Under the pieces are notes generated by a model. It was not told the origin of the DNA and made no database searches. It saw only the letters and a program-made list of their open reading frames with translations. Positions 47,982 through 56,974 of a stretch of DNA of 64,000 nt are shown piece after piece (position 1 is the stretch's first letter; each line of letters opens with the position of its first letter). The translations under genes were made by a program, and so were the position numbers. The DNA comes from Clostridium ljungdahlii (GTDB lineage: Bacteria > Bacillota > Clostridia > Clostridiales > Clostridiaceae): positions 124,001 through 188,000 of the forward strand of contig NZ_LITT01000058.1 in the NCBI RefSeq assembly GCF_001636845.1, written 5' to 3'.

Positions 47982-48626
47982 GTGATTTTTTTGATTTATG
48001 GATATATGAGAATAAGCACTAAGAAGGAGAAACAGACAACGGATAGACAAAAAATAACATTAGAAACTTATGCAAAAGGCAATAAGTTTAAATTTGATAA
48101 GATTGTAGAAGAAAGGGTAAGTGGAGCTGTTATAGCTGAAAAGAGAGAAGTTTATAGTGATCTAAAAGCTAAAACACTAAGAAAAAATGATATTCTTATA
48201 ATAACTGATTTAGACAGATTAGGCAGAGATGCAGATGACATAATTTCAGAACTAAAAGAACTTAAAAGTAGAGGAATAAGAGTTATAGCTTTGGATATAC
48301 CTTACATGAACAAATGGCAAAAGTTAATGGATAGTAGTTTGTACAATATGATTATTGATATAGTCATTACTTTAAAGGCACATATGGCACAGCAAGAAAG
48401 AGAGAAGATGGTTGAACGAATCAATTAAGGCCTAAATGCAGCAAGAGCTAGGGGAACTAAATTAGGCAGACCACAAGTCGAGTTACGAAAAGATTTTATT
48501 AAAGAATATGAGAAATTTAAAAATGGAACATATGGTAAGATGACTGCTTTAGGGTTTGCAAAGATGCTTGGAATAGGTAGAGCGACCCTATATAAATATA
48601 TAAACATTTATAAGAATAAAAACTAA
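47982..48626 (+). pseudogene. Small serine resolvase interrupted by a nonsense codon
   Basis: The first 148 codons encode a complete resolvase catalytic domain (IYGYMRISTKKEKQTTDRQK, ITDLDRLGRD, and the long E helix to EREKMVERIN). A TAA at 48426 then interrupts the frame. Reading on in the same frame gives GLNAARARGTKLGRPQVEL and a C-terminal helix-turn-helix (GFAKMLGIGRATLYKYIN) to a stop at 48624. Intact relatives have Gln where the stop lies, so a single CAA-to-TAA change is likely. The truncated protein would lack the DNA-binding domain. A sequencing error cannot be excluded. Confidence 0.8.
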
Positions 48627-48780: not shown

Positions 48781-48915
48781 ATGAAAAATGGCCTAAATTT
48801 TGTAAAACCACTTATTCAAATTGTGTATGACAGAGGTGAGATAAATGAGCTTACGTATAAAAAAATCATGCATAAGTTAAAAAAGGAGGAAGCTAAAAAT
48901 GAGAGAAGTAACTAA
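48781..48915 (+). CDS. Small SHOCT-like protein overlapping the recombinase
   Basis: The 44-residue frame starts after AGGAGAGAAG and contains 'PLIQIVYDRGEINELTYKKI', a SHOCT-like short helical pattern. Its last 17 bases overlap the large serine recombinase gene in another frame, and the recombinase ribosome binding site lies within it, so the two are translationally coupled. It may be an accessory or directionality factor; this is only inferred from position. Confidence 0.55.
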   Translation: MKNGLNFVKPLIQIVYDRGEINELTYKKIMHKLKKEEAKNERSN

Positions 48916-50686
48916 TAAAAATCGTAAGGTAGCAATCTATGGTCGTGTTAGTTCTGAGCATGAGTCACAACTATCAGCCTTTGCAAATCAGATAAAGTGG
49001 TATGATGCACAGGCAGAAAGACATCCTGAGTGGGAAATAGTAGAAAAATACTTTGATAAGGGTATTACAGGTACTCAGGCAAGAAAGAGACCAAGCTTTC
49101 TAAAAATGATAAATGATGCAGATCAAGGAAAATTTGACTTAATAGTAACACGTGAAGTAAGTAGATTTGCACGTAATACACTTGATGCACTTAAATATAC
49201 AAGGCAACTCAAGGAACATGGGATAGAGGTTCGTTTTCTAATTGATGATATTAGCACTTTTGACTGTGATGGAGAAACAAGACTTACTAATATGGCTGCA
49301 TATGCACAAGATGAGAGTAGAAAAATTAGTGAGCGTGTTAAGGCTGGTCAATATATAGCAAGGCATGAAAAAGGTGTTCTTTATGGAAGTGGAAATATAC
49401 TTGGATACAACAGATTAGGAAAAACTTTTATTATAGATGATGAACAAGCTGAAACGGTAAGGATGATATTTAGGATGTATTTAGATGGTTATGGACTAAG
49501 GCTAATAAAAACAGAATTATTAAAAAAGGGAAGAAAAAATTCAAAAGATCAGGTGAAATGGTTTGAGTCAACAATAAGCAGAATGCTAGAAAATCCTATG
49601 TATATAGGTAAGCAATACCAGAATAAGACATATGTAAAAGACTTCCTGGATCATAAAATTGTAAGGAATGATAAAATTAATTATTTGTTAATAGATGGAA
49701 AGTTTGAACCTATTATATCAGTTGAAGATTTTGAAAAAGTAGCAGCAATTAAAAAAAGGAGGGTCAAGAAGAATCCTGGTCAAAATCCTTATGGTATTAA
49801 AACATCTAATGATAAATGGATAAATTTATTGGAATGTAATTGTGGTTCAAGATTTCAGCAGTATAAGTGGAGAAAAGACAAAAAAACAGGTAAAATAAAA
49901 AAAGGATATGCATGTAGAAATAGAATAAACAATGGTAGGACGGAGTATAGAAAAAATAATAATTTACCTTTAGATGGGGTGTGTGATAGAAAAACAATTT
50001 GTGATTGGCACTTAGAACTTATGATAAAAGACATACTTGAAGAAATATGGGGCTTTCGCAAAGAATCAGTGATCAAAGCTTTTGAACTTATTAAAGATAA
50101 CTTTGTAGATGATAATATTAACAATGTTAGTACAATAAATAAACTTAATTCTAAGATATTAAGGTACAAGAAAAAAATAAGTGTGCTTACTGATTTATAT
50201 ACTGATGGTGATATCATAAAGAGAGATTTTATTGATAACCGAGATCAGTATAATGGATTCATTAAGACAGCAGAAAGTGAAATAAAACGAATTGATGGAG
50301 GCGTAGGCTTAGAGAAAAAAAATTTAGAAAATAAGCTACAGCATATAAAAAAAGTATTAGAACAATTAATTGATTTTAATGTTGAACAATTAGATGATAG
50401 TTTAATTAGGCAACTTGTGGATAAAGTTATAGTAAGAAGTGATAATAAATTTGAGTGGCTTTTAAATATCTCTGGTGGTGAAATGGGAGATGTATTCAGT
50501 TTTATGCTTAATGAGAAACTTGATATTAAGAGACAAAAGAGTATAGAAACAAGAGATACAAAATATACTTTAGCATTTAGCTCAATAATAAGCTTTGATA
50601 GAGCTAGGGCGTACAGAAAGCAATATAACAAATATCTTAGGAAAAATCAATGGACAGATATTAATTATGAGGTTTATGTGAGATAA
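48899..50686 (+). CDS. Large serine recombinase (integrase of the island)
   Basis: The 595 residues show the catalytic resolvase domain (GRVSSEHES with nucleophile Ser18; REVSRFARN), the recombinase domain, a zinc ribbon (CNCGSRFQQ, then YACRNR and VCDRK), and a C-terminal coiled coil (about residues 410-490). This is the layout of phage and integrative-element integrases that act without strong sequence homology. It ends about 340 bases from the right end of the island, the usual place for an integrase, and is intact. AAGGAGG precedes the ATG. Confidence 0.93.
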   Translation: MREVTNKNRKVAIYGRVSSEHESQLSAFANQIKWYDAQAERHPEWEIVEKYFDKGITGTQARKRPSFLKMINDADQGKFDLIVTREVSRFARNTLDALKYTRQLKEHGIEVRFLIDDISTFDCDGETRLTNMAAYAQDESRKISERVKAGQYIARHEKGVLYGSGNILGYNRLGKTFIIDDEQAETVRMIFRMYLDGYGLRLIKTELLKKGRKNSKDQVKWFESTISRMLENPMYIGKQYQNKTYVKDFLDHKIVRNDKINYLLIDGKFEPIISVEDFEKVAAIKKRRVKKNPGQNPYGIKTSNDKWINLLECNCGSRFQQYKWRKDKKTGKIKKGYACRNRINNGRTEYRKNNNLPLDGVCDRKTICDWHLELMIKDILEEIWGFRKESVIKAFELIKDNFVDDNINNVSTINKLNSKILRYKKKISVLTDLYTDGDIIKRDFIDNRDQYNGFIKTAESEIKRIDGGVGLEKKNLENKLQHIKKVLEQLIDFNVEQLDDSLIRQLVDKVIVRSDNKFEWLLNISGGEMGDVFSFMLNEKLDIKRQKSIETRDTKYTLAFSSIISFDRARAYRKQYNKYLRKNQWTDINYEVYVR

Positions 50687-50731: not shown

Positions 50732-51005
50732 AGAGTCGATTAAAAAAGGGCATTTAGATAATAAATTTAAATTTAGTGCATGAAGAAAAAAGTCGTTATG
50801 TAAAAAGTGGAACACATAATAAGTGACAGTAAGCTTCTATTAAAAGATTTTTATAAATAAAAAGTACATATATAATAGGAAGGAAAATTTTTACTAGACT
50901 GATAAAAAATAAGCAAAGACTATTTTTAAACATTTACATAGAGCAATTTTTAGTATATTATTAATATAAAGATGCTCCGTAATAGTAAAAAATGGAGTTT
51001 GGGCT

Positions 51006-51110
51006 ATTAAGATAGCAACAGCTCAAGCTCAGATAAAACATCCAAGAAAGTAATTAAAAGTATAGTAATAGCTTAAAAAGCCTTATAAAATGGCAATTTG
51101 AAGCTATCTG
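51006..51110 (+). pseudogene. Relic of the ppdK 3' end (attR-like)
   Basis: The frame reads AIKIATAQAQIKHPRK and stops at 51051-51053, matching the ppdK C-terminus VARLAAAQAQIKHP with conservative changes (R/K, L/I). Upstream of it the match to ppdK ends abruptly. Similarity to the DNA after ppdK continues to about 51110. It is the host or donor ppdK tail left at the right border of the island. Confidence 0.8.
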
Positions 51111-51114
51111 TACT

Positions 51115-51166
51115 ATGGCATTGTAACTTAATTTCACCATTGATTTTAAGTACAATGCCATGTTTT
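51115..51166 (+). terminator. Terminator after the ppdK relic
   Basis: ATGGCATTGTA-ACTTAA pairs with TTAAGT-ACAATGCCAT, followed by TTTTTA. It stands in the same place relative to the relic as the terminator after intact ppdK. Confidence 0.85.
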
Positions 51167-51190
51167 TATATAACAAGTTGATTAAAATTA

Positions 51191-51433
51191 TTAGTGCTGC
51201 AAACATTTTAATAAATCATAGTGTACAGAAATATCATTCCTATATTCATCAATAAAAATACGATATAGTATTCTGTCATTAATCAGAGTTTGTACAAATA
51301 TACCATTTGAATAAATGTCATACTGTTCGTCTTCAAATTCAAACATCTCCTTATTAGTTTTTGTAGCTTCAATCATAGTTCTGTCAAAAATTTTAATTTT
51401 TTGAAAAAACATTTCTTCACAACTAATTACCAT
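51191..51433 (-). CDS. Small unknown protein (80 aa)
   Basis: AAAGGAGAG precedes the ATG on the minus strand. The acidic, aromatic-rich product (MVISCEEMFFQKIKIFDRTM...) has no recognised motif. It lies just outside the island and downstream of the Ppx-PPK1 gene in the same direction. Confidence 0.6.
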   Translation of the reverse strand: MVISCEEMFFQKIKIFDRTMIEATKTNKEMFEFEDEQYDIYSNGIFVQTLINDRILYRIFIDEYRNDISVHYDLLKCLQH

Positions 51434-51492
51434 AATATACTCTCCTTTGTATTATTGAACATTTAATATGTTCATATTTTTGTATTTTACTG

Positions 51493-53688
51493 TTATATAG
51501 AATTAGCTAGCTTGGGTTTGAACCCATTTTCAATCCAATAATTTTTGCTATATTGTAAAAAAACTTGCCTGTCATAATTGTTTTCTGTTTCAACATTGTA
51601 GAAAATTTTTTGACTGTTTATACTCTCTTTGCCTCTTCTGTCAATTCGGGTATAAGATCCATCTATATTTAAGATTCTGGTTTTTACGGTATCTGCAAGT
51701 CCAATACTTAAAATCTCCTTTACCTTAGCTATTGCACTTTTGTCTTCAACTGGAAATAATAACTCTATCCTTCTATCTAAGTTTCTATTCATCCAATCAG
51801 CACTGGAAAGATAAATTGTTTCATCTCCATCGTTATAAAAATAGTAAATACGGCTGTGTTCCAAGAATTTTCCTACTATGCTCTTTACAGATATATTTTC
51901 ACTTATTCCTGGGATACCAGGCCTTAGACAACAAATTCCACGTACAATTAAATAAATATTAACTCCTGCACTTGAGGCTTTGTATAGAGCCATGATAATT
52001 TCAACATCCACCAAAGAATTCATCTTTGCAATAATTTTAGCGGGCTTGCCAATACTTGCATTTTTCGTTTCTTGAGATATCATATATAGGAAACGATCTC
52101 TTAAATTTAAAGGTGCTAAGCTTAACTTATATAAGTCAGTTGGATGAGAATGTCCCGATAGCATATTAAATACAGCAGATGCATCTGAACCTATATAAGG
52201 ATTTGTAGTAAACAACCCCAAATCTGTATATAACTGTGCTGTGACATCATTGTAATTGCCTGTACCTAAATGGACATAACGTTTAATTCCATCACTTTCT
52301 TTACGAACAACAAGCAATATCTTGCAGTGGGTTTTAAGGCCAACCAAACCGTAAATTACATGACATCCTGCCTTTTCTAAACGCTTTGCCCAGAGAATGT
52401 TATTTCCCTCATCAAATCTTGCTATGTTGGCAGTCAACTGTAAATCTTCATCAGAAAATCCAGTAATATTTTGACTGGAAATTATATTATAAGATTGAAT
52501 ACAATGGTTACAGGCATCCACAAAAATTCCTACATCATGAAGAATAGAAGCCGTCTGTAAATAAAGTCTCTCATTTTCTCCAAGCTTATGAAGTTTTTTT
52601 GTTTGATCAAATATTGATAAAGCAATTTTTTCAACAAAAGCGGCATGCCTTTTATTAATTCTGTATTTTTCAGCTATATACCACACGGAACTAATAATGT
52701 AATTTTGAGAGTCTTCTTTTCTATCAATGCCAAGAAAATCTTCTGCTAAATCATATAAAATGCCTTTTCGTAAGGAGGCCATTGGAATTTGTATATTTTT
52801 GTTTTTAGTTATTTTAAGAAAATAATGAAAAATTAAAATTGAAGGTAAAAGTAACTCAGCAGATTTATAAGAAACATTATATGTAAATCTTATTTGATCG
52901 TTTGTCATATTTCGAATATGCTCATATAATTCTATAAAGTCTTCTCTTTTTATAAAGTTGCCATTTTCAAAAAAAATTTTTTGCTTATTCAAATCACTTC
53001 TTTTCCATATGATTTTTGAAATTGTCTTGAGTTCTCCTCCCAGGCCTATTATGTATTCAAAACTAAGGTTTTCTATAAAACATTTTATGGAATAAAGTTT
53101 ATTTTCAATAAACTGTTCCATTATTGAAGGAAAATCTAATGTTTTTGCTTCCAATTCACCTAAGGTTTCTCTAAGACGTAAAGATCCTATTTTTGACTGC
53201 TCAATAAATTTTAGCTGTCCTTCTTCATAAATTGATACCTCAACAGCTCCTGAGGTAATATTTATAACTAATACTCGTCTTAAAGTGGTTAAATTAAAAT
53301 TGTAATTAATTTCCTTTAGCATAAGAAGACGTTCTTGAGTAGCATTAATGCATTCAACAAATAAATCTGTTCGAAGCTTTATTTGTTCTAGAATATATTG
53401 TTTATTTTCAGCTTCTCTGATTCCACTAGTAGAAATAGCTTTATAAAAATTTACATTATAATCTTTTATTAGCTGTGTAAAATTTTTTAAATGGTAGCAC
53501 GTTTGATGCATAGTTTGTATAGAAATTTTCTTTGAAGTAAAGGTATCCTTACCTATATTTGTAGGTTTAATTACGTCTTCTAGAATTTTTATAACTTTAT
53601 CTTTATGAATTTCTGCTATACTCATTTTTAAATAATTAGAGCCTATGTCAATAGCAGCAATAGTATCTCCTTCTTTGATTTTTTTCAT
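51493..53688 (-). CDS. Ppx/GppA-HD protein fused to the C-terminal part of polyphosphate kinase
   Basis: Residues 1 to about 424 are a Ppx/GppA-type domain (AAIDIGSNYLKMSI, IIGLGGELKTI) plus an HD domain (SILHDVGIF). At residue 424 the sequence changes without a stop into PPK1: ARFDEGNNILWAKRLEKAG, GLKTHCKI (His454, matching E. coli His435), YVHLGTGNYND, and FLEHSRIY (His611, matching His592). The PPK1 N and H domains and the first part of C1, including the E. coli Arg375 region, are absent. The Ppx half has lost the usual DIGGGS phosphate motif (NITSGAVE). ATG follows AAGGAAAG. It is probably an in-frame deletion fusion, and whether it is active is unknown. Confidence 0.88.
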   Translation of the reverse strand: MKKIKEGDTIAAIDIGSNYLKMSIAEIHKDKVIKILEDVIKPTNIGKDTFTSKKISIQTMHQTCYHLKNFTQLIKDYNVNFYKAISTSGIREAENKQYILEQIKLRTDLFVECINATQERLLMLKEINYNFNLTTLRRVLVINITSGAVEVSIYEEGQLKFIEQSKIGSLRLRETLGELEAKTLDFPSIMEQFIENKLYSIKCFIENLSFEYIIGLGGELKTISKIIWKRSDLNKQKIFFENGNFIKREDFIELYEHIRNMTNDQIRFTYNVSYKSAELLLPSILIFHYFLKITKNKNIQIPMASLRKGILYDLAEDFLGIDRKEDSQNYIISSVWYIAEKYRINKRHAAFVEKIALSIFDQTKKLHKLGENERLYLQTASILHDVGIFVDACNHCIQSYNIISSQNITGFSDEDLQLTANIARFDEGNNILWAKRLEKAGCHVIYGLVGLKTHCKILLVVRKESDGIKRYVHLGTGNYNDVTAQLYTDLGLFTTNPYIGSDASAVFNMLSGHSHPTDLYKLSLAPLNLRDRFLYMISQETKNASIGKPAKIIAKMNSLVDVEIIMALYKASSAGVNIYLIVRGICCLRPGIPGISENISVKSIVGKFLEHSRIYYFYNDGDETIYLSSADWMNRNLDRRIELLFPVEDKSAIAKVKEILSIGLADTVKTRILNIDGSYTRIDRRGKESINSQKIFYNVETENNYDRQVFLQYSKNYWIENGFKPKLANSI

Positions 53689-53786
53689 AAGGCTTTCCTT
53701 CCTTAATATAAAAATATAATTATTATGATAATTTCTACACTTTCCATATCTAATTATAGTATAATTCTAAAGCTTATTGTCGAAAG

Positions 53787-53823
53787 TTTACATTTCTTAA
53801 ACGTACTTAACATATACTTAACA
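53787..53823. promoter_or_regulatory. Four PhoP-box-like repeats
   Basis: TTTACA (53787), TTAAAC (53797), TTAACA (53807) and TTAACA (53818) are spaced by 4, 4 and 5 bases. This fits the Gram-positive PhoP box, TT(A/T/C)ACA repeated about every 11 bases. It lies between two divergent polyphosphate genes. A minus-strand promoter (TCGACA, 19 bases, TATAAT ending at 53753) lies next to it. Confidence 0.6.
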
Positions 53824-53980
53824 TAGCCAAAAAAGTTGCAATAAGGGGTGTTATATGATAGTCGATTAAGTTGTTGCAAATGTTTTAGTTATTGAATAAA
53901 ATTAGAGATAAGTTTATTAATGGCATGTGTTTTATACTGTCAATAATTAGAAAGTTTTGAATTGAAAAAAGGAGAGAAAA

Positions 53981-55489
53981 ATGAAGCAAATAGGGATTAT
54001 TGATATAGGATCAAATTCAATAAGATTGGTACTTGCTAAGATTAGTGAAAACAAATGTTTTAACATAATAGACGAAGTAAAGGAAACTGTACGGCTTGGC
54101 AAGGATATGACTATTCATGGAGAGTTAAATTCTTTAAAGATAGAGAAAGCTATAAAGGCAATATCATTTTTTAAATGTTTATGTGAAGCACAAGGCATTA
54201 CAGAAATTATAGCAGTAGCTACAGAGGCAGTGCGTAAAGCATCAAATCAGTCAAAGTTTATAAATAGGGTTAAATCAGAATTAAGCATTGAAATAAGGGT
54301 ATTATCAGGTACAGCAGAGGCTTATTATGATTATTTTGGAAATATAAATAGCATGGACATTTCTAACGCACTTTTAATGGATATTGGAGGAAGTAGTGCA
54401 GAACTTATTTGGGTTGAAAACAGAAAACTTAAGTATTCCATTAGTTTGCCTTTTGGTGCAATAAATTTGACAGAAAGATTTTATTTAAATGAAGCTATAG
54501 ATGAAAAAACAGAAAAGGATTTGAAAAAATTTATACTTTCTTTTTATAAAGATATACCATGGTTAAAAGAGATAAAAAATTTACCTTTAATTGGTATAGG
54601 AGGAACATTCCGAAATATAGCTAAGATAAGCCGAAAAAAGAACGAATATCCTATAGACAATATTCATAATTACACAATAACTATGGATGAGGTAGAGGAA
54701 ATATACAACATGATAAAAATAAAAAATCAGGCAGAACGAAAAAAAATAAAAGGGTTGTCTAAAAACAGGGCAGATATATTTTTGGGTGCTGTCGGTGCTA
54801 TAGTTACTTTATCTCAATTTCTGAACTTAAAAAAACTTTATGTAAGTGGATGTGGAATTAGAGAAGGAATTATTTATGAATATATTTTGAAAAATAATAA
54901 ACCTTTGAAAGATGTTTTAGACTTTTCAATAAACAATTATATGGTTAATCATGAAATGAATTTAAATCATGCTAAACAGGTATGGAAACTTGCTGAAAGT
55001 TTATATAATGACCTTAAGCCAATACTAAATATTAATTGTGATTACTATAATATTTTAAAAACAGCTGCTCTTCTTCATGATTGTGGAATACACATAAGTT
55101 ATTATAATCATCATGCCCATTCTTTTTATATAATCTTGAATTCTAAAATAAATGGTTTATCACATAAGGAGCAACTTATGGCTGCGTATATAGCTGCTCT
55201 TCATAGAAAAAATGATTTTAAGATAAATTTACAGAAATATGGCAAGGTAATAAGCGAGAATGATATAGAAATTATTGAAAAACTAGCTGTACTAGTACGA
55301 ATTTGTGAAAATTTAGATGGTGGTATACATGGGAATATAAGCAGCGTATCCTGTACTATAAGGTCAGATAATGTAACTATAAATGTCAAATCCAAGACGG
55401 ATTCATTTTTAGAAATAAGTCAGGCGTTAGAGTGTACTGCAGCTTTTGAAAAAATTTTTAGTAAGAAGTTAATTATTAAAGCTAGTTGA
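53981..55489 (+). CDS. ppx: Exopolyphosphatase / guanosine pentaphosphate phosphohydrolase
   Basis: The 502 residues carry the ASKHA-fold motifs IIDIGSNSIRLVLAKI, LLMDIGGSSAELIW and LIGIGGTFRNIAKI, then an HD domain with ALLHDCGIHI and NHHAHSFYII. The enzyme removes terminal phosphate from polyphosphate or converts pppGpp to ppGpp. Unlike the Ppx half of the divergent fusion, all phosphate-binding motifs are intact. AAAAGGAGAG precedes the ATG. The upstream PhoP-like repeats suggest phosphate control. Confidence 0.93.
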   Translation: MKQIGIIDIGSNSIRLVLAKISENKCFNIIDEVKETVRLGKDMTIHGELNSLKIEKAIKAISFFKCLCEAQGITEIIAVATEAVRKASNQSKFINRVKSELSIEIRVLSGTAEAYYDYFGNINSMDISNALLMDIGGSSAELIWVENRKLKYSISLPFGAINLTERFYLNEAIDEKTEKDLKKFILSFYKDIPWLKEIKNLPLIGIGGTFRNIAKISRKKNEYPIDNIHNYTITMDEVEEIYNMIKIKNQAERKKIKGLSKNRADIFLGAVGAIVTLSQFLNLKKLYVSGCGIREGIIYEYILKNNKPLKDVLDFSINNYMVNHEMNLNHAKQVWKLAESLYNDLKPILNINCDYYNILKTAALLHDCGIHISYYNHHAHSFYIILNSKINGLSHKEQLMAAYIAALHRKNDFKINLQKYGKVISENDIEIIEKLAVLVRICENLDGGIHGNISSVSCTIRSDNVTINVKSKTDSFLEISQALECTAAFEKIFSKKLIIKAS

Positions 55490-55521: not shown

Positions 55522-55562
55522 AAGTTTCATACTATTAAACAATAATAGTATGAAACTTTTTT
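55522..55562. terminator. Bidirectional terminator between ppx and the CotS-like gene
   Basis: AAGTTTCATACTATT pairs with AATAGTATGAAACTT and is followed by a T run. The right arm encodes the last codons of the convergent minus-strand gene. Confidence 0.9.
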
Positions 55563-56572
55563 TCTACGTATTTTCCTAGACTTATAATAAATTTAAGTTG
55601 ATTAATATTATTAGAACATTTTTTTAGTATATAGTAAAAAGAATTATGGTTACATTTTGATATGTTTTTATAATAATCTCTAGATATTTTCCAAAATTTT
55701 TGAGGAAAAGCTAAATAAGATATTATATATTTATAATCATCTAATGTTAATGGAAAAGTTTTTTCGTATAAATTTAAACATTCTAATGTTATATCTAGCT
55801 GCCAATTAGTAGAATTTCGCTTTAGAAATCTTCTTAAGAAATAGGAGATATCATGTGCACAATAGTCTATGCTGCATTTATCAAAATCTATTATCCAAAT
55901 TTTATTGTTATTATCAAATATTATATTTTTATTTACATAATCTAGGTGGCATAGGCAGGTATTTAGATTATCATAGTTTATAGAAGAAGATATTCTAGAG
56001 GACATTTGTGCCAGTATAAGGTTAATTTCAAAATATTGTAGAAACAATTGCGAGAATTTATCTTTATATTTAACTGCCAAATTTGAGCAATTTAACAGCT
56101 GCTTAGAATGTTTTTCAAAAGATATATATGTTTTTTCAAAATTAATCCTTTCAATACTACCTTTAATGGGAGTGAAACTTTTGCTTACTTTATGCATTTT
56201 TGCTAAATTAGATATGGATACTAAGAGATGATCTTTAATGTTATAATTACATTTAGTACCCGTTATCCAGGGAGTAAGCATAAAAAGCATTTCATTATAT
56301 TTTACATATCGACCTCCATAAATTGTAGGTAATATTCTAGGAACTCTAATGTTATTTCTAAAAAGCCATTCTATGGCAGAATATACAAAAAGTAAATTTG
56401 CTTCATCAAAATATACTTTCTTTAAACAGTAATTTTTATTTAGATGACTTACTTTATATACTGCCCTCTGCTTATCTGTATTTTTAAATTTGATTCTATC
56501 TATAGATGCATTATTCATATTGTAATAGGGAAGTACGTATTTTTTTACAGTTTTTTCAGATAACAAATCCAT
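55535..56572 (-). CDS. CotS-like spore coat kinase-fold protein
   Basis: The 345-residue protein belongs to the aminoglycoside-phosphotransferase/CotS superfamily. The catalytic loop CHLDYVNKNIIFD and the metal motif WIIDFDKCSIDY are kept, so it may phosphorylate a small molecule or coat component. Members of this type (CotS, CotI, YutH) are spore-coat associated. The start at 56572 is chosen because GAGGAG lies seven bases upstream. The 402-base gap to dnaG is very AT-rich and shows no gene. Confidence 0.85.
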   Translation of the reverse strand: MDLLSEKTVKKYVLPYYNMNNASIDRIKFKNTDKQRAVYKVSHLNKNYCLKKVYFDEANLLFVYSAIEWLFRNNIRVPRILPTIYGGRYVKYNEMLFMLTPWITGTKCNYNIKDHLLVSISNLAKMHKVSKSFTPIKGSIERINFEKTYISFEKHSKQLLNCSNLAVKYKDKFSQLFLQYFEINLILAQMSSRISSSINYDNLNTCLCHLDYVNKNIIFDNNNKIWIIDFDKCSIDYCAHDISYFLRRFLKRNSTNWQLDITLECLNLYEKTFPLTLDDYKYIISYLAFPQKFWKISRDYYKNISKCNHNSFYYILKKCSNNINQLKFIISLGKYVEKKFHTIIV

Positions 56573-56974
56573 ACAAAAACTCCTCAAAAGTTGTTCCTCT
56601 ATAATAATATTAAAGTACCTTTTATAATATACATTATTCTTAAAAAAAGAAGTTTTAGAAAATAAAATGTAACAAATTTCTTATATAGAGAGGAATAATT
56701 TTTAATAGTATGTGGGCAAAATAGGAACAAATACATAGCATTTACAGTAAAGTTACAGAATTAAATTATATATTATATATTTATAAGTAAAATTATGCAG
56801 TTTTGAAATTAAAAATTTTTTTTATTGAAGGATATTTAATTTTTGTAAAGAATATATATAGTATATTCCTTATTTGAGAAAAAAAATATTTATTTTTGAA
56901 GAAGGAATATAGTAATTTATGTCGAATATATTTATTCTTGAACATAATAATTTAAGATAGGTGGGGATTCGTTA

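Follow-up and report, generated by a model that had tools for sequence, protein, structure and literature searches.

Organisation of the fused locus

The window analysed here is the whole 64,000-nucleotide stretch of Clostridium ljungdahlii DNA (contig NZ_LITT01000058.1, positions 124,001 to 188,000). It contains one open reading frame in which most of a Ppx/GppA-type gene (ppx1) is joined to the back half of a polyphosphate kinase 1 gene (ppk1). The features of the locus, in window coordinates, are:

51191..51433, minus strand: 80-residue ORF in the downstream flank, common to sister genome G003
51493..53688, minus strand: fused ppx1::ppk1 frame, 731 codons with an ATG start and without internal stop
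51493..52415, minus strand: ppk1-derived part, comprising the second half of C1, the whole of C2 and the C-terminal tail (PF17941 from profile position 74, PF13090 complete)
51866..51970, minus strand: ppk1 stretch still matched in G003 (107 aligned columns, 86% identity)
52416..52422, minus strand: GCAAGAT, the single remaining copy of a 7-bp direct repeat at the proposed deletion junction, from DNA alignments to relatives
52416..53688, minus strand: ppx1-derived part, residues 1–424, with an actin-like Ppx fold and a truncated HD-type domain
53693..53888, no strand assigned: sequence lying upstream of the fusion, kept at 87% identity in G003, where the fused gene itself is absent
53981..55489, plus strand: second, divergent ppx of 502 residues with a DIGGSS motif, open here and in scraps in G003
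55535..56587, minus strand: APH-type phosphotransferase in the other flank, common to G003 and G005

The reading frame and the Pfam domain boundaries together confirm the initial annotation, which described a 731-codon frame switching from a Ppx-HD protein to PPK1 at residue 424. Ppx-GppA (PF02541) covers residues 25–316, above its gathering score, and is followed by an incomplete domain III (Ppx-GppA_III, PF21447) at residues 334–428, which matches profile positions 5–101 of 177, compared to 5–158 in the C. thailandense ppx1 parent. PP_kinase_C_1 (PF17941) covers residues 423–515 and is also incomplete (profile positions 74–166 of 167), while PP_kinase_C (PF13090) is complete at residues 522–693 (positions 1–172 of 172, 235.9 bits). 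The PPK1 N domain (PF13089) and middle domain (PF02503) are both present in C. thailandense PPK1, but Pfam detects neither of them in the fused protein. As had been proposed, the fusion lacks N and H domains, and the first half of C1 is gone as well. Against the NCBIfam PPK1 model TIGR03705 the fused protein scores 430.1, below the curated cut-off of 465.85.

Alignment to the E. coli structure 1xdo places the equivalents of His435, His592, Arg405, Tyr468 and Arg564 (E. coli PPK1 active-site residues) at H454, H611, R424, Y487 and R583. The earlier statements that both kinase histidines are kept and that Arg424 corresponds to E. coli Arg405 are therefore sound.

Compared with a predicted structure of intact PPK1, that of the fusion shows less order in the remaining half of C1, with 10-residue blocks having pLDDT values of 29–42 instead of 46–77; C2 is alike in the two. 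Order is low in the HD-type region of the fusion model too, and residues 322–528 are nearly all below a pLDDT of 50. The two models were built on shallow alignments of 15 and 5 sequences and have mean pLDDT values of 59.7 and 45.6. Because the alignments are shallow and low order is not confined to C1, the low values for C1 are weak evidence. A fold search gave matches for the Ppx part and hardly probed the PPK1 part.

Separate ppx1 and ppk1 genes in related genomes

Elsewhere in the Clostridiaceae, ppx1 and ppk1 occur as two adjoining genes arranged in the same order, and a second, divergent ppx lies upstream of them. The initial annotation had suggested looking for the same fusion in clostridial genomes and for separate genes in relatives. 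Among the matches listed at E 1e-20 or better, the fused single frame occurs in one of 206 family genomes, namely the present one (G000). By hand count, at least 30 other family genomes among the matches listed have a ppx1 match of at least 40% identity over approximately residues 1–426, and in all 30 of these the adjoining ppk1 match has a frame of its own. The same fusion was not seen in 59 relatives, nor elsewhere among 13 genus genomes including the present one, sets which overlap with the 206. A search of genome contigs, from which the present or very near records were possibly left out, returned three loci, the best segment of each being residues 1–425. No description of a Ppx-PPK1 fusion was found in the titles and abstract beginnings of the papers listed by literature searches.

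The nearest separate copies are those of C. thailandense, C. magnum and C. drakei, to which the fusion is 74–76% identical in the Ppx part and 78–84% identical at the amino acid level in the PPK1 part. In C. drakei SL1 (L022:2510-4659), a frame break, which may be real or a sequencing error, splits ppk1 into frames of 360 and 364 residues. In C. thailandense a stand-alone protein consisting of Ppx-GppA domain III and HD adjoins the cluster (L028:250-927); ORFs in other relatives resemble it, on the basis of size and place alone.

The Ppx part of the fusion reads NITSG at the position of the DIGGGS motif, which presumably binds phosphate. The initial annotation correctly described the motif as absent. 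The absence fails as a sign of novelty, since DIGGGS is also replaced in all seven separate ppx1 genes that were aligned (L028, L029, L022, L023, L024, L025 and L046, out of the at least 30 counted). Loss of the motif is therefore ancestral and not specific to the fusion, and we rejected it as an indication of a new function. At the presumed catalytic position, however, an invariant Glu (E119 of C. thailandense) is retained in these neighbours of ppk1. On the basis of their sequences, these ppx1 products may be non-catalytic partners of PPK1, and the observation points to a clostridial Ppx paralogue that lies beside ppk1 and lacks the usual motif in the aligned members.

The fusion junction

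The junction lies at nucleotides 1267–1273 of the fused gene, corresponding to window positions 52422–52416. In comparisons with the three nearest relatives, DNA similarity to ppx1 extends as far as nucleotide 1273 and that to ppk1 is present from nucleotide 1266 or 1267 onwards, such that the two overlap on the sequence GCAAGAT. This sequence is present at both breakpoints in C. thailandense and C. drakei, while in C. magnum only GCAAG (5 bp) is common to the two. The repeat copies are 1511 bp apart in C. thailandense, 1510 in C. drakei and 1511 in C. magnum. Pairs of breakpoints drawn at random share 7 bp or more in 0.12%, 0.14% and 0.10% of cases for C. thailandense, C. drakei and C. magnum respectively (200,000 draws). 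There are hundreds of repeats of at least 7 bp between ppx1 and ppk1, some of them 10–12 bp long, so that GCAAGAT is not special by its length. It occurs exactly at both breakpoints in C. thailandense and C. drakei, which makes a short-repeat deletion the best explanation. The similarity end points and the repeat in relatives support the original proposal that adjacent ppx and ppk1 genes were joined by an in-frame deletion at GCAAGAT.

On this explanation, slippage or end-joining at the 7-bp repeat would have produced a deletion of approximately 1.5 kb between the co-directional neighbours ppx1 and ppk1. In C. thailandense numbering, 92 codons at the end of ppx1, the intergenic bases and 402 codons at the start of ppk1 would have been lost, with the frame preserved by chance.

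Polyphosphate kinases elsewhere in the genome

The initial annotation had named a ppk1 front half in the same strain as evidence against its reading. A front-half query found no match in the present genome, nor in G003, G005 or G009; it did match G004, G015, G148 and G152, that is four of the eight genomes searched, and those expected to have it. The PPK1 middle domain (PF02503) likewise had no match in the present genome, and no PPK2 was found there. We therefore rejected a second ppk1 or a PPK2 in this genome, the front-half query being validated by the positive genomes.

The locus in sister genomes

The present genome is close to G003 and G005, with 95–96% identity in the flanking APH protein and dS values of 0.08–0.23 in nine gene comparisons. 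At the same site in G003, five short blocks remain, separated by four gaps. The two outer blocks are the flanks; between them, counting from the downstream flank, lie 107 columns of ppk1, sequence from upstream of the fusion and part of the second ppx. In G003 coordinates each block overlaps the next, in this order by 23, 6, 12 and 4 bp, and the 23-bp overlap of the first two is probably in part a chance extension. In G005 there is no match for the fused protein, and none for the genes of the locus in a DNA comparison. In G009, from the same genus, ppx1 is cut to a frame of 264 residues and ppx2 to one of 163 residues, which is apparently a further loss within the genus. Judging from these comparisons, the locus is under loss in this species group.

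Just downstream of the locus are two genes of serine-recombinase type (47982-48428 and 48899-50686), the longer of which has a full Recombinase domain. Given these genes, a mobile element may border the locus; a search for repeats beside them gave only pairs of 70–85% identity. A scan of positions 51000-54100 for promoters and terminators gave 19 promoter-like sites, compared to a mean of 19.1 in shuffled sequence.

The genes of the locus and their neighbours differ in their relationships. Identity to the present genome in dnaG is 76% for G008, 73% for G004, 71% for both C. thailandense and C. magnum, and 70% for G007; in APH it is 75% for G008, 72% for G004, 67% for G007, 66% for C. thailandense and 61% for C. 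magnum. The ranking is the opposite for ppx1 and ppk1, with C. thailandense and C. magnum closer than the genus mates. In G004, APH adjoins dnaG and both are far from ppx1-ppk1, so the site of the locus differs from that in the present genome. The reversed order and the different site suggest horizontal acquisition, and the species group probably acquired the polyphosphate locus from a C. magnum/drakei-like lineage.

Constraint and age of the fusion

The fusion differs at 4 of 257 columns that are invariant in the other seven taxa (2 of 112 in ppx1 and 2 of 145 in ppk1). The changes are R to K and G to D in the ppx1 part, and R to K and V to I in the ppk1 part, three of the four being conservative. 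Neutral change over 0.06 substitutions per site, which is approximately half of the flank dS, would be expected to produce 34 changes at these columns and 5.3 stops, and the probability of 731 codons remaining free of stops is 0.005. The 95% upper bound on the neutral distance is 0.016 per site. The count of changed invariant columns is too low for a long period of neutral decay dating from the divergence of the sister species, a reading that we rejected. The absence of stops, together with only four changed columns, implies that the fusion is either young or still constrained; if the gene is dead, it would have died late.

Among the four nearest taxa, the present lineage has changed at 32 of 293 ppx1 columns and 16 of 227 ppk1 columns that are invariant in the other three. 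The corresponding values for those three range from 13 of 274 to 26 of 287 in ppx1, and from 8 of 219 to 24 of 235 in ppk1.

Branch tests used 8 taxa each for ppx1 and ppk1, 7 each for ppx2 and dnaG, and 6 for APH. C. drakei was omitted for ppx2, where it has only a 238-residue frame beside a contig start, and G037 for APH, where it has no match. Codons gapped in any taxon were dropped, which kept 411 for ppx1 and 295 for ppk1. Omega on the present lineage, compared to background, is 0.143 against 0.065 in the ppx1 part (2ΔlnL 9.4) and 0.283 against 0.053 in the second ppx (2ΔlnL 11.6); the test is rough and both results carry little weight. The ppk1 part is not raised (0.065 against 0.055, 2ΔlnL 0.33), and nor are the neighbours dnaG (0.061 against 0.084) and APH (0.061 against 0.056). 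For ppx1 and ppk1, two topologies gave nearly equal values. In dnaG, five of seven lineages have 2ΔlnL above 10 (10.5 to 76.4), and the values of 9.4 and 11.6 are therefore not to be taken at face value. For ppk1 in other lineages, omega is 0.170 against 0.049 in C. drakei, where the gene is split (2ΔlnL 7.7), and 0.119 against 0.052 in C. magnum, where it is open (2ΔlnL 4.1).

Interpretation

We consider it likely that the frame is a recent, catalytically dead fusion, formed by a short-repeat deletion as one step in the loss of the polyphosphate locus. The protein would consist of an actin-like Ppx domain still able to fold, a truncated HD-type domain, one half of C1 and a complete C2, and with this make-up it is predicted not to make polyphosphate. 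The initial annotation left the choice between a dead fusion and a new polyphosphate-binding or regulatory protein. We favour the first, given that only scraps of the locus are present in G003 and that it is unmatched in G005; the second is less likely but keeps some credit, because the frame shows few damaging changes.

A fusion kept by selection would be a sensor or regulator in which the non-canonical Ppx1 part binds polyphosphate or nucleotide and C2 adds a phosphate-binding surface, possibly in partnership with the second Ppx. The open frame fits such a role, as do the four changes at 257 invariant columns, three of them conservative, the lack of relaxation in the ppk1 part, the retained back-half active-site residues and the presence of the region upstream of the gene. 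However, few changes are equally expected from a recent deletion. Moreover, the fusion is found in 1 of 206 family genomes among the matches listed, no polyphosphate kinase was detected in the genome to make the ligand, half of C1 is missing and the remainder is predicted to be poorly ordered, and the locus is lost in sister genomes. We therefore regard selection for such a role as unlikely. We think it distinctly unlikely that the frame is a recent, still expressed chimera kept as a polyphosphate- or nucleotide-binding regulator made from the non-canonical Ppx half and the intact C2; if true, this would be a gene birth by deletion in a species no longer making polyphosphate via PPK1.

An assembly artefact, in which a false join at GCAAGAT hides a strain with separate genes, might be suspected from a junction that coincides with a short repeat and is known from the assembled sequence alone. 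It is nevertheless very improbable: the 402 front-half codons of ppk1 are unmatched in a genome rated 99.99% complete, with positive controls, the site lies inside a 285-kb contig, G003 has several gaps at the same locus, and 7 bp is far below the usual overlap length of assemblers.

That the fused protein is a minimal PPK1 still making or using polyphosphate is suggested by the two histidines and three further back-half active-site residues, and by M. tuberculosis PPK1, where mutation of Arg-431, which we equate with E. coli Arg375 from the offset of the histidines, is reported to have disrupted NTP synthesis only (PMC3215733); but the N and H domains are absent, as are the first 73 of 167 C1 positions, and the TIGR03705 score is 430.1 against 465.85, so that we give it hardly any credence.

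The preferred reading, a recent dead fusion, provides a snapshot of cluster loss: relatives have the intact pair, the present genome has an in-frame fusion, G003 retains scraps and G005 has no match. It has a practical consequence, in that the fused frame is open to automatic misannotation as a polyphosphate kinase, though no complete PPK1 and no PPK2 was detected in the genome.

Comparison with known systems

Compared to PPK1, approximately residues 423–693 of the fusion correspond to C2 in full and to C1 in its second half, both histidines included. The fusion differs from PPK1 in lacking the N domain, the H domain and the first 73 C1 positions, and in falling below the family cut-off. Compared to the Ppx/GppA family, it has NITSG in place of DIGGGS, its domain III ends at profile position 101 of 177, and it lacks the last 92 residues of C. 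thailandense ppx1. The closest parallel in process is gene fusion by short-repeat deletion during gene loss, with which it shares a 7-bp junction repeat, co-directional neighbours and an eroded sister locus; it differs in having a full-length open frame, so that it passes as a single gene.
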